DNA of 64,000 nucleotides, taken from Granulicella sp. L46 (lineage in GTDB: Bacteria; Acidobacteriota; Terriglobia; Terriglobales; Acidobacteriaceae). The notes beneath the pieces were generated by a model. That model was not told the DNA's origin, made no database searches, and saw nothing but the letters and a program-made list of their open reading frames with translations. Numbering within the stretch: the stretch's first letter is position 1; the number at the start of each line of letters is the position of its first letter. The DNA lies in assembly GCF_009765785.1 (NCBI RefSeq), contig NZ_LMUT01000009.1:322215-386214 (forward strand), read 5' to 3'. Shown here one piece after another: positions 56,490 through 59,557 of this stretch. The position numbers and the translations under genes were made by a program.

Positions 56490-58271
56490 ATGGCGAAGTT
56501 CGCTAATACCTTGCTGCGCCGAAGCACGACCGCGGCCCTGCTCACTGCAGCAATCGCGGCTGTTTGTTTCGGCGCAAATGCGCAAGACAAGAAGAAGCAT
56601 GAGGAGGCTAAGCCTGTGCCTTCTTACTACGGCCCGCAGCCTCCGACCGAGACGCTCGACCTCGCGATGTATCAGCGCATCCGCGAAGAAGGCTTTCAGC
56701 ATGGCAAGGTGATGGACTTCGCCGAGGCGCTGAATGACGGCATCGGCCCGCGCCTTACCGGCTCGCCCAACATGGCCAAGGCGAATGCCTGGACGCGCGA
56801 TACGTTGACGGCGATTGGATTGTCGAACGCGCATCTTGAAGACTGGGGCGAGTTCGGATTGGGCTGGGCGCAGGTAAATACCTGGGCACGCATGGTCTCG
56901 CCTGACCCTGAGCCACTGTGGATGCAGTCCGCGCCGTGGTCTCCTGCAACCAAGGGGCCTGTCAGCGGCGAGATCGTCTACGTGCCGCTCACGGACGCCA
57001 AGGAGCTGGACGCGCTGAAGGGTAAGCTCTCCGGCAAGATCGTTCTGCTAGGTTCCACGCGCCCCACCCCCGACATCACCAAGCCGCTCTTCACGCGCTA
57101 CACCGATGAGGAGCTCAAAGAGATGCAGACGTACGAAGCAGGCCGCTCGTTCTCGCTGAGCAGCCCCGCCTTCCGGACAATGTATGCGCAGCGCATGCAA
57201 GCCGCCTCACTGCGCAGACAGGCCGTTGCGATGATGGCGGACGAAGGTGTCCTTGCCATCATCACGCCCAGCCGCGATAGCGAGGATGGGGGCGGTACCG
57301 GGATCATCTTCGACGATAACGGCGCCAACCTCGCACGCGATGCGCAGAAGCCCGAGAACGCCGTCAAGATTCCGAACGCCGTGATGATGATTGAGCACTA
57401 CAACCGCCTCGCGCGGATGGTCCAGCATCATGTGCCTGTCACGCTTGAAGTCAACATTGAGACCAAGGTCACGGGCGAGCATGAGCACGGCTTCGATACC
57501 GTCGCTGAAATCCCGGGCACCGATCCCGAGTTGAAGGACCAGGTCGTCATGGTCGGTGGGCATCTCGACAGCTGGATCTCCGGCACCGGGGCAACCGACA
57601 ATGGCGCAGGCACGGTCGTTGCGATGGAGGCGGTGCGCATCCTCAAGGCGCTCGATCTGCATCCGCGGCGTACTATTCGCATCGCGCTTTGGAGCGGTGA
57701 GGAGGAAGGCCTCTTCGGCTCGCAGGGCTATGTGAAGCAGCACTTCGGCAGCTTCGCTCCGCCGGCTACGCCTGATCCCGCCGGCATCCCCAGCTTCATG
57801 GGGCATCATGGCGCGTTCAACCCCACGCCTGAGTGGGACAAGCTTGACGCTTACTACAACCTCGATAACGGCACCGGCAAGGTGCGTGGTGTGTATACGC
57901 AGGGCAACTTCGCTATCGCGCCGATCTTCGCTCAGTGGATCGCGCCGCTCGCGGATCTAGGGGTTACGACGATCACGAATCGCAACACCGGCGGCACCGA
58001 TCACCTGTCGTTCGATGCGGTCGGGCTGCCCGGCTTCCAGTACATCCAGGATCCGATGGACTACGAGACGCGCACGCATCACTCCGACATGGACACTGTC
58101 GATCGCCTCCACCAGGGCGATCTTGAACAGGCGGCCGTCGTCGAAGCGATCTTCCTGTGGAACACCAGCCAGCGCGACGCGATGATGCCGCGCAAGCCGT
58201 ATCCTCATCCCGAGCTCGATCAGAAGATGAATGCCCCGCTCAAGGGCATCTATCCGAACGCCGTCGAGTAA
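56490..58271 (+). CDS. Secreted M28-family metallopeptidase
   Basis: 593 aa. Signal peptide (STTAALLTAAIAAVCFGANAQ), a PA-like insert (about 130-290) and the M28 di-zinc catalytic domain with H358 (MVGGHLDSW), D370 (GATDNGAGT), E404/E405 (WSGEEEGLFG), a later Asp (YYNLDNGTG) and a His in THHSDMDTVD. Carboxypeptidase-Q-like aminopeptidases of this length are common in acidobacteria and release amino acids from peptides outside the cytoplasm. GAGGAG precedes the ATG. Followed by a strong terminator. Confidence 0.93.
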   Translation: MAKFANTLLRRSTTAALLTAAIAAVCFGANAQDKKKHEEAKPVPSYYGPQPPTETLDLAMYQRIREEGFQHGKVMDFAEALNDGIGPRLTGSPNMAKANAWTRDTLTAIGLSNAHLEDWGEFGLGWAQVNTWARMVSPDPEPLWMQSAPWSPATKGPVSGEIVYVPLTDAKELDALKGKLSGKIVLLGSTRPTPDITKPLFTRYTDEELKEMQTYEAGRSFSLSSPAFRTMYAQRMQAASLRRQAVAMMADEGVLAIITPSRDSEDGGGTGIIFDDNGANLARDAQKPENAVKIPNAVMMIEHYNRLARMVQHHVPVTLEVNIETKVTGEHEHGFDTVAEIPGTDPELKDQVVMVGGHLDSWISGTGATDNGAGTVVAMEAVRILKALDLHPRRTIRIALWSGEEEGLFGSQGYVKQHFGSFAPPATPDPAGIPSFMGHHGAFNPTPEWDKLDAYYNLDNGTGKVRGVYTQGNFAIAPIFAQWIAPLADLGVTTITNRNTGGTDHLSFDAVGLPGFQYIQDPMDYETRTHHSDMDTVDRLHQGDLEQAAVVEAIFLWNTSQRDAMMPRKPYPHPELDQKMNAPLKGIYPNAVE

Positions 58272-58290
58272 GCCTCATCTGGCACCCAAC

Positions 58291-58328
58291 CAGCGGCGAA
58301 GACTTCGGTCTTCGCCGCTGTTCTTTGG
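58291..58328 (+). terminator. Strong terminator with UUCG tetraloop
   Basis: CAGCGGCGAAGAC (58291-58303) pairs perfectly over 13 bp with GTCTTCGCCGCTG (58308-58320) around a C(TTCG)G loop, one of the most stable tetraloops, and is followed by TTCTTTGG. It ends the M28 peptidase transcript. Confidence 0.9.
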
Positions 58329-58342
58329 GATCCATCCAAGGC

Positions 58343-58390
58343 TGTCATCTCGACCGAAGCGCAGCGCAATGGAGAGATCCCTGCATTCCG
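58343..58390 (+). repeat. Left 48-bp inverted repeat flanking the GIY-YIG gene
   Basis: Starts TGTCATCTCGACCGAAGCG and ends GGAGAGATCCCTGCATTCCG. Aligned with the reverse complement of 58758-58805 it matches at 44 of 48 positions. Its inner end touches the stop codon of the GIY-YIG gene. Repeats of this kind, translatable as SRPKRSxxERSLH, are scattered in intergenic DNA of many soil bacteria. Confidence 0.9.
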
Positions 58391-58729
58391 CTAAAACGCC
58401 TCAGGCTTATGAAGTTCACCAGAGAACGGTTCCACAGGCGTTCCCCACTCCGCGCTGAGGTCGCGCCACGCGGGATTACTCCCGACAATCAGGGCAACCT
58501 TCTTAATCCGGGACCATCGCTTCAATTGTTTTTCGCGAGCGATCGCGACTTGGATATCGCTATATCGTTCGAAGTAAACCAGGCGCTTGATGTTATATCG
58601 TGCACTGAAGCTTTCGGGAAACACATGATCTTTGTGCTCGGAGATTCTCTTTTCAAGCTTGGTCGTGAGCCCGATATACAGGCACTTCGAATTGCCACTG
58701 AGGATGTAAACGTAGGCAAATGTTTCCAT
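58391..58729 (-). CDS. GIY-YIG nuclease-family protein
   Basis: 112 aa. The catalytic core is intact: VYILSGNSKCLYIGLTTKLEKRISEHK (GIY-YIG strand motif as VYI...YIG, followed by the conserved Arg), ARYNIKRLVYFERYSDIQVAIAREKQLKRWSRIKKVALI with the conserved Glu in AREKQLK. Stand-alone proteins of this type (YhbQ/UPF0213-like) are putative endonucleases. It is framed by 48-bp inverted repeats whose boundary coincides with its stop codon, suggesting a mobile or self-propagating cassette. Confidence 0.92.
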   Translation of the reverse strand: METFAYVYILSGNSKCLYIGLTTKLEKRISEHKDHVFPESFSARYNIKRLVYFERYSDIQVAIAREKQLKRWSRIKKVALIVGSNPAWRDLSAEWGTPVEPFSGELHKPEAF

Positions 58730-58757
58730 AGTCTCGAAGTATGATCGCTACAGCGTT

Positions 58758-58805
58758 CGGAATGCAGTGATCTCTCCACTACGCTTCGCTTCGGTCGAGA
58801 TGACA
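58758..58805 (-). repeat. Right 48-bp inverted repeat flanking the GIY-YIG gene
   Basis: Plus-strand sequence begins CGGAATGCAGTGATCTCTCC and ends CTTCGGTCGAGATGACA, inverted relative to 58343-58390 with four mismatches. It lies 28 nt upstream of the GIY-YIG start codon and 48 nt upstream of the TRIC-like gene. Confidence 0.9.
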
Positions 58806-58853
58806 AAGCTGGGACTTCGTCCAAGGATGGAAGTCCGCGTTATAGTAGCTGGC

Positions 58854-59501
58854 ATGAAGTTGATCCCCCACCCGCGATCCACAACGCTGCTGCTAGCCAT
58901 TGACCTGGTGGGCACGGGATTGTTTGCTGCCGAAGGGGCTTCCGTGGCCGTCAATGCCAGGCTGGACCTTTTGGGCGTGCTGGTGATTGCGATCGTCACG
59001 GCGACCGGGGGCGGGATTATTCGCGACGTTCTTCTTGGGGATGCTCCGCCGAGCTCCATGCGGGACTGGCGCTATTTCTCCATCGCCCTGGTGGCAGGAG
59101 CCAGTGTTTTCCTTGTGCATTCCGCCACTCATTTTGAAAACTCTTCGTTGATTACGCTGCTGGACGCTGCGGGTCTGAGCTTTTTTGCTGTCGCCGGTGC
59201 AGCCAAGGCAGTCCAGTTTGGTCTGACTCCACTGCTCTGCATCATGCTGGGCGGGATTACCGGTGTGGGGGGCGGAGCGATCCGCGACGTATTGATCAGC
59301 CGTGTGCCCATGGTGCTTCGCGGCGATATCTATGCCACTGCGGCCTTGCTCGGTGCGGCCGTTACCGTGATCTGCCTCCGGCTGAAAGTTCCTCCTGCCA
59401 TCGCCAGCAGTTTGGGGATTGTCTCCTGCTTTGTGCTTCGCATGCTGGCCGTGCATTTCCATTGGAATTTGCCGGGGGCTGTTCCTGCGAATCCTTCATG
59501 A
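58854..59501 (+). CDS. Trimeric intracellular cation channel family (UPF0126) membrane protein
   Basis: 215 aa with about seven TM helices made of two repeated units. Each unit holds the family signature: AIDLVGTGLFAAEGASVAVNARLDLLGVLVIAIVTATGGGIIRDVLLG and AAGLSFFAVAGAAKAVQFG...GVGGGAIRDVLISRVPMVL. Prokaryotic members form trimeric, mainly K+/Na+-conducting channels. The start is the ATG at 58854; the frame to 58767 lies in the inverted repeat. Single gene. Confidence 0.93.
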   Translation: MKLIPHPRSTTLLLAIDLVGTGLFAAEGASVAVNARLDLLGVLVIAIVTATGGGIIRDVLLGDAPPSSMRDWRYFSIALVAGASVFLVHSATHFENSSLITLLDAAGLSFFAVAGAAKAVQFGLTPLLCIMLGGITGVGGGAIRDVLISRVPMVLRGDIYATAALLGAAVTVICLRLKVPPAIASSLGIVSCFVLRMLAVHFHWNLPGAVPANPS

Positions 59502-59557
59502 AGCCGTCACCACGCTTCTTTGTGAGCCTCGCAGGCTAGCCGTAACATCGAAGAGGC

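Follow-up and report, generated by a model that had tools for sequence, protein, structure and literature searches.

The window analysed here is a stretch of 64,000 nucleotides from Granulicella sp. L46, and the unit under study within it is 463 bp long (58343-58805), made up of a repeat, a gene and a second, inverted repeat. The left repeat (58343..58390, plus strand) and the right repeat (58758..58805, minus strand) are REP-like hairpins with a tail, each 48 nt long and each carrying a TGTC tag at its outer end; the two arms are 92% complementary (44/48), with a spacing of 367 nt. Between them lie a GIY-YIG nuclease gene of 112 aa (58391..58729, minus strand), identified from its open reading frame, Pfam match and conserved columns, and a leader of 28 nt that separates the gene start from the right repeat (58730..58757). 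The left repeat abuts the gene, because the stop codon of the nuclease occupies 58391-58393 on the minus strand. An earlier note on this DNA had described a 463-bp unit with a GIY-YIG gene inside repeats that match at 44 of 48 positions, the left one adjoining the stop codon, and each of these points was confirmed by the reading frame, the PF01541 match and the inverted-repeat comparison, which gave the same count.

The gene order around the unit is M28 peptidase, terminator-like hairpin, unit, Gly_transporter, DUF2461. The terminator-like hairpin (58291..58320, plus strand), 3' of the upstream M28 peptidase gene, lies outside the unit and to the left of the insertion, and a similar hairpin is also found in relatives that lack the cassette. 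The Gly_transporter gene (PF03458; 58854..59501, plus strand), between the cassette and the DUF2461 gene, is missing from the cassette-less relatives too. No DDE or HUH transposase was found in the unit, as the gene between the repeats matches only PF01541 in Pfam, and no intron or intein was seen at the window cassette. An Rfam search of 57800-59300 gave one sub-threshold match, no intron and nothing at or above the threshold.

The window protein matches the GIY-YIG family PF01541 with an E-value of 2.4e-11 and 44.2 bits (cut-off 22.6). Residues Y8, Y18, G20, R28, H32, E66 and N85 did not vary across two alignments, one of 12 sequences and one of 25, and the YVY and YIG motifs together with R28, H32, E66 and N85, which we take to be the catalytic residues of the family, are all present. 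The predicted structure has a mean pLDDT of 85.7, and the nearest solved structure to it was that of a UPF0213 protein (1zg2, E 1.9e-4), the sole match below 0.001, followed by weaker matches (E 0.04) to Slx1 (6seh, 4xlg), a branched-DNA nuclease. Stand-alone UPF0213-type GIY-YIG proteins and Slx1 are the best sequence and structure matches among solved structures, although no repeat or mobility role is mentioned in the entries compared. This likeness of the model suggests that the window protein could be a structure-selective nuclease, and such an enzyme acting on REP hairpins would fit the anatomy of the unit. No family in NCBIfam or PHROGs matched the GIY-YIG proteins submitted, and no relative was found in the phage collection.

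Copies, tag and hairpin of the repeat

When copies were aligned, the 48-nt repeat resolved into a hairpin unit of about 36 nt and a shared tail, about CCTGCATT, which most copies have. Its core, GTCATCTCGACCGAAGCGNAGCGNANTGGAGAGATC, is present in 19 copies with no more than three mismatches in the 5.48-Mb genome, compared with none for the reversed control, and a looser pattern covering several GTCAT hairpin types gave 133 matches (control 0). The genome-wide count suggested in the earlier note showed the repeat to be multicopy, and 17 of the 19 core copies are not near any PF01541 match. The window pair is the sole pair of the repeat around a GIY-YIG gene in its genome.

The repeat shares the TGTC tag and the AT-initial stem (TGTCATCTC...) with the CGTC/TGTC REP superfamily, and its many dispersed copies (the 133 pattern matches) also agree with that superfamily. 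The stem of 8-9 bp, the loop of 4-5 and the tail, mostly CCA, of that superfamily are not seen in the window repeat, which has an outer stem of 5 bp (ATCTC/GAGAT) with bulges, a longer loop and a tail of about CCCTGCATT. In A. lipoferum, S. meliloti and Neorhizobium, repeats next to GIY-YIG genes do, by eye, have the expected stem, loop and tail. Because its stem is interrupted and its loop long, the window repeat is regarded as CGTC-like and outside families 1-4 as they are set out in the available text of Di Nocera et al. 2013 (PMC3733652).

Folding of the window repeat as a single hairpin was no better than that of shuffled sequences (z -0.02 to 0.91). As folding energy gave no signal, covariation across loci was used instead, and 157 of 270 outward tags were found to have an arm pairing with their own next three bases. 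The corresponding fraction in shuffled controls averaged 0.118 (largest 0.178), and among tags from random regions 23 of 411 found such an arm.

A degenerate repeat near L003, with eight mismatches, was set aside as too weak. Degenerate tracts like TTGCTKTTGCYTTTGC were also observed just outside REP tags or between clustered REPs, for example in L067 (~1375-1420), L030 (1372-1420) and L229-L246, and at the REP copies in L014, L020 and L021. These tracts may belong to the element itself or mark a target that it favours.

Association of the repeats with small GIY-YIG genes

Four of the five small GIY-YIG genes in the window's genome have no such pair. As one flanked gene out of five was not enough, the survey was widened to relatives. 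The search for PF01541 matches covered 28 genomes of the genus. From these, 40 small GIY-YIG loci were compared for an inverted repeat between the left and right flanks, with a score of 18 or more counted as association. Long frames of the UvrC type, one long disrupted frame and loci at the end of a contig (L026 and L054, for example) were left out, while four loci that resemble other GIY-YIG subfamilies (L035, L060, L066 and L071) were kept among the 40 as misses. Nineteen of the 40 genes were found between inverted repeats, 18 of them with TCAT in both arms, and the flanked loci comprise at least four repeat types. In a crude motif test, the left-arm tags pointed outward at 15 loci, in both directions at three and inward at one. 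In one of the genomes, G009 (Granulicella sp. S156), two loci are 100% identical to that record. On our reading, the 21 genus genes without a detectable pair may be decayed or older insertions, or may belong to other subfamilies.

Within the genus, none of seven UvrC genes has flanking inverted repeats. Among 1094 random positions, drawn from the window and from 20 segments of 20 kb in two relatives, three were flanked at a score of 18 or more; none of these was GTCAT-tagged, and all three coincide with two RAYT genes.

The RAYT genes matter for another explanation, in which the mobility of the REPs is due to RAYT (HUH) transposases or to host processes, and the GIY-YIG gene is cargo or a bystander that came to lie between two REPs. 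RAYT genes are indeed common, being present in 26 of the 28 genus genomes, and their count correlates with REP density (0.567, n=28, kinship uncorrected). However, RAYT genes carry other inverted repeats: of 30 RAYT loci 26 were entered and 25 scored (L193 was too short), and GTCAT hairpin pairs were found at none of the 25 and on one side only at two, while most had inverted repeats of other kinds. The absence of any GTCAT-tagged pair around the random positions also speaks against cargo picked up by chance, which would not be expected to recur across phyla with matched yet differing repeat types. In addition, the available text of PMC3733652 reports no RAYT flanked by CGTC REPs and describes other transposase links as fortuitous only. 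We therefore consider this explanation improbable. Long inverted repeats of other types were observed at genus RAYT genes in L073 (~15400), L074 (~7400) and L183-L209. Inverted repeats of tyrosine transposases, Acidobacteria included, have been described as TIRtrons (PMC3733652, in the part available), and the TIRtron-type RAYT loci are a second system in these genomes.

At the level of whole genomes, a hand count of small GIY-YIG genes correlates with REP density with a Spearman coefficient of 0.675 (p 8e-5, n=28, kinship uncorrected). The partial correlations, also uncorrected for kinship, were 0.518 for GIY-YIG given the RAYT count and 0.299 for RAYT. The 16 genomes with a small GIY-YIG gene hold 0-133 REPs each and the 12 without one hold 0-59, with six or fewer in nine of these 12. 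Two REP-rich genomes, G012 (59 REPs) and G002 (30), have no small GIY-YIG gene that could be detected, possible readings being a lost enzyme, an incomplete assembly or another enzyme. G018 has a small GIY-YIG gene of another subfamily and no REPs.

The association extends beyond the genus. A species-level scan with one genome per species was used for the best 80 of at least 551 relatives, of which 79 could be scored (L161 was too short). Inverted flanking repeats with a score of 18 or more were found at 38 of these 79 best-listed loci, a figure that includes L093, L096 and L097, which duplicate genus loci, and some hairpins of other kinds such as a terminator-like one at L129. The left arm at these 38 pointed outward in 27, in both directions in three and inward in two, and was without the motif in six. 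When hairpins were defined strictly, 32 of 75 loci from the same best 80 of at least 551 had outward REPs on both sides and 22 of 75 on one side. The REPs are concentrated next to the gene: in this best-listed set the first 100 bp held 30 outward hairpin REPs on the left and 32 on the right (inward, 12 and 15), and at 1-2 kb from the gene there were 0-2 outward REPs per bin. Flanked loci were found in Alphaproteobacteria, Bacteroidota, Neisseria and candidate phyla.

An evenly drawn sample of the Microvirga family was obtained by a Pfam search, with 28 newly added rows scored and L309 lying at an edge. Here, 14 of 18 small GIY-YIG genes scored compared with one of nine long-frame genes, which served as UvrC controls, and the tags of the small genes were CGTC, TGTC or CCTC-like. 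Two of the alphaproteobacterial long frames, L303 and L311, may be small genes, and L311 is the one that scored. In 12 named genomes, 19 of 35 small GIY-YIG genes scored, which is not an unselected sample because the genomes were picked for holding the query loci.

In the plasmid collection, 14 of the 33 matching records were read and 10 of the 14 GIY-YIG loci scored, compared with two of 488 random positions from four of those replicons. Several genes in this set have REP dimers on each side, and the tags in Sinorhizobium sp. C101 point inward. In plasmid AZO_p3 of Azospirillum lipoferum 4B (L354, 1341-2000), sufB and sufC are separated by a GIY-YIG cassette that has a CGTC REP dimer at either end. 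Spirosoma (17) and Planktothrix (17.5) had scores below the threshold with tags on both sides, and no inverted pair was found at the GIY-YIG gene of Photobacterium or R. tumorigenes in this collection. In Planktothrix agardhii plasmid p1 (L360, 1489-1773) the GIY-YIG gene with its TGTCAT tags on both sides has an MmeI-type restriction gene and the DISARM helicase gene drmA as neighbours. Two records labelled as plasmids, NZ_CP119140.1 (N. gonorrhoeae, 2.2 Mb) and NZ_AP026896.1 (A. caviae, 4.9 Mb), look like chromosomes.

Taken against the random positions and the RAYT control, the counts from the genus, the best-listed relatives, the Microvirga family and the plasmids rule against a random placement of the repeats with respect to GIY-YIG genes, the outcome that would have told against the earlier note. 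Several of the flanked genes belong to species in which CGTC REPs have been described: S. meliloti (CGTCATCCTCGGGCTTGACCCGAGGATCCA), A. lipoferum 4B, N. aromaticivorans, where the repeat has a CGTC tag without AT, and Neisseria. All four are named as CGTC REP carriers in the available part of PMC3733652, which also states that CGTC REPs "apparently lack a dedicated transposase". The association suggests that the GIY-YIG protein may be the dedicated nuclease of the CGTC/TGTC REPs, by which they would be cut and moved.

The repeats also appear to be specific to their genes. After removal of L093, L096 and L097 as genus duplicates from the counts of specificity and orientation, the left and right repeat types agreed (no more than 1/8 differences) at 46 of 68 loci, whereas shuffled partners agreed at 10 on average and at 18 at most in 500 shuffles. 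Raw GTCAT on both sides within 320 bp was outward at 68 of 117 loci and inward at 19 of 117. On a tree of the GIY-YIG proteins the repeat class changed 30 times, compared with a shuffled mean of 41.1 and none of 200 shuffles as low, in a tree with few columns and many unresolved forks on which the clustering test is inflated by near-copies.

Boundaries, empty sites and gene-less doublets

The limits of the cassette can be seen where copies lie in different surroundings. In two acidobacterial assemblies (L111 and L136) 432 of 466 columns are identical (92.7%) from TGTCAT to ATGACA, and outside the tags 14 and 8 of the next 30 bases agree. Two copies in one genome, L052 and L057, share 86% identity over ~640 bp only.

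Presence or absence of the unit, the second outcome on which the earlier note had staked its reading, was found to vary at four loci: L067, L068, L063 and the window. At the L067 site, G003 has the cassette and an extra REP, G004 has one REP between the same flanks and G023 has one REP; in the eight other genomes compared no REP was seen, apart from bare GTCAT pentamers. At the L068 site, G004 has the cassette; G003 shares its outer flanks, and between them lies a doublet of that repeat type without a gene. At the L063 site the cassette is present in G009, while G003 has a single REP of another type and G004 has none.

At the window site, empty sites were located by synteny through the DUF2461 gene. 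Only ~100 bp separate the M28 gene from the DUF2461 gene in G012, G019 and G020, an interval that holds neither the cassette nor the Gly_transporter gene, and the insertion event of the cassette itself is not separable at the window because the Gly_transporter gene is missing from the same relatives. Synteny through the Gly_transporter gene gave nothing, as a match was obtained in seven of the 28 genomes and M28 adjoined it only in the window's genome. The length of the M28-DUF2461 interval (window 58272-59557; L339, L342 and L349) varies among relatives, some of which have REP tags in it. No target-site duplication was noticed at the compared sites, where the flanks have diverged. The terminal inverted repeats and the presence or absence at defined sites are both features of insertion sequences.

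Gene-less doublets with the ends TTGCTTTTCTGGTTGTCATTCCGAGCG, common to the cassettes L030 and L032, were found in G003 and G004. In 18 doublets examined, the length from tag to tag was 89-169 bp, mostly 141-169 bp, and by hand count G004 has at least 45 such places (at least 39 in one listing). Three doublets are orthologous between G003 and G004: two pairs among the 18 examined, and L239 with its counterpart in G004. G004 lacks the L229 doublet and has a different small REP hairpin there.

With the placement and polymorphism results, the minimal self-propagating element proposed in the earlier note, comparable to REPs with their RAYT but using a GIY-YIG enzyme, is supported as the best candidate. 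Counting against it are the 21 genus genes without a pair, four of them in the window's genome, the exceptional genomes G012, G002 and G018, the correlation of RAYT count with REP density and the loci with inward tags. We consider it likely, at roughly 70%, that the window unit is a member of a widespread group of minimal cassettes, in which the GIY-YIG nuclease would recognise the hairpin, presumably cut it, and so spread the DNA bounded by the tags.

The same sites bear on two other explanations. Free-standing GIY-YIG enzymes include homing endonucleases. The nuclease could cut existing REPs or REP doublets and the cassette be copied in by gene conversion through REP homology, reaching only places where REPs are already present, with the REPs themselves spreading otherwise. 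The L067 and L068 sites fit homing, since the single REP of G004 at L067 corresponds to a REP plus REP-gene-REP in G003, and since the same-type doublet and the cassette at L068 share their outer flanks; the relatives at the window site are without a REP. This absence from the closest relatives at the window, and from eight of the 10 genomes compared at L067, speaks against homing, and the change at L067 and L068 may have run in either direction. Moreover, the repeat type tends to track the nuclease lineage, which need not be the case for a pure parasite of foreign REPs. Homing alone is therefore an unlikely, but not negligible, explanation.

Alternatively, the flanking hairpins could be mere expression signals, such as bidirectional terminators or elements for mRNA stability, of a resident housekeeping nuclease. 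According to the available text of PMC3733652, most REPs lie 3' of genes, and a role as RNA hairpins is possible for many. However, mere signals of a resident gene would not explain why identity ends at the tags in different flanks, why the unit is missing at orthologous sites or why many copies of the repeat have no gene between them. Barring assembly artefacts, the boundary and polymorphism data oppose this explanation, which we regard as very improbable.

Relation to known systems and a possible mechanism

The arrangement resembles that of REPtrons and REPINs, in which GTAG REPs are associated with a RAYT (TnpA-REP). In both, a single short gene for an enzyme is enclosed by tagged hairpins, many further repeats occur singly or as doublets without a gene, and there are several repeat types, each with its own enzyme. 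Unlike REPtrons, whose enzyme is an HUH Y1 transposase (PF01797), the window unit has a GIY-YIG enzyme (PF01541), and the cassette tag is CGTC/TGTC (TGTC in the window) rather than GTAG. The inverted repeats at the RAYT genes of these genomes are of other kinds, and the sole PF01797 match of the window's genome is on a different contig. The gene-less inverted doublets of G003 and G004, with their cassette ends, are similar to bacterial MITEs, from which they differ in that their partner would be a GIY-YIG nuclease and that no target-site duplication was seen.

The closest repeats are the CGTC-tagged REPs, including Neisseria dRS3, of Di Nocera et al. 2013 (PMC3733652), which in the available text share the CGTC/TGTC tag, the AT-initial stem and the frequent dimers, and in A. 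lipoferum, S. meliloti and N. gonorrhoeae the GIY-YIG genes are enclosed by repeats fitting that description. The differences are that no enzyme is reported for them in that text, and that, compared with the four families, the stem of the window repeat is shorter and interrupted and its loop is longer. Among the open-access papers listed, judged by titles and abstract openings, none tied GIY-YIG genes to REPs, and the main text of RepRanger 2025 (PMC12306157) has no mention of a nuclease, transposase, RAYT or GIY. The CGTC REPs, the GIY-YIG proteins and the logic of a REP with its enzyme are known, and it is the pairing of GIY-YIG with REPs that appears to be new.

In the most likely mechanism, the nuclease would recognise the hairpin, either as a single strand or as a cruciform, during replication. 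It would then cut or nick near the GTC tag, and host repair or replication could copy or move the DNA between two tags, in cis and in trans. The items moved in this way could be the cassette and the gene-less, MITE-like doublets, with single REPs arising when one arm is kept. Insertion could proceed by excision and reinsertion, or by a break-and-copy homing into existing REPs. The comparisons of sequences on which this proposal draws are the gene-repeat association across phyla, the predominant orientation, the matched types, the covariation, the boundaries at the tags, the polymorphism and the doublets with the same ends; from them we infer that the protein binds and cleaves the repeat, that it may act in trans on doublets and single copies, and that one of the above routes leads to insertion.

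With somewhat less confidence, and at only slightly better than even odds, we propose that these units represent a new class of mobile element, found from Acidobacteriota to candidate phyla, with a GIY-YIG nuclease of ~100 aa as the sole enzyme and CGTC/TGTC hairpins as ends. The nuclease would be the missing enzyme of the CGTC REPs (Neisseria dRS3, rhizobial and acidobacterial), driving cassettes, doublets and single REPs without DDE, HUH or recombinase chemistry. The short repeats of bacteria that are grouped as CGTC REPs form a large superfamily. If the GIY-YIG protein is their enzyme, an open question turns into a simple biochemical test. A nuclease family would then be linked to a new type of bacterial DNA element, and a function could be given to many genes annotated merely as "GIY-YIG nuclease family protein". 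It would also help to explain the spread of short palindromes through genomes.

The GIY-YIG homing endonucleases, free-standing or intronic, share with the cassette the catalytic domain, the small size of the unit and a presence at a given site that varies between genomes. The cassette differs from them in being bounded by hairpin repeats that also occur alone, and in having copies at non-allelic intergenic sites. Another GIY-YIG protein in these genomes, of 229 aa and without flanking inverted repeats, was observed at L060 and L066 (in G003 and G004), where the surrounding DNA is 96% identical between the two genomes. It has repeated C-terminal motifs, which resemble those of NUMOD-type homing endonucleases.
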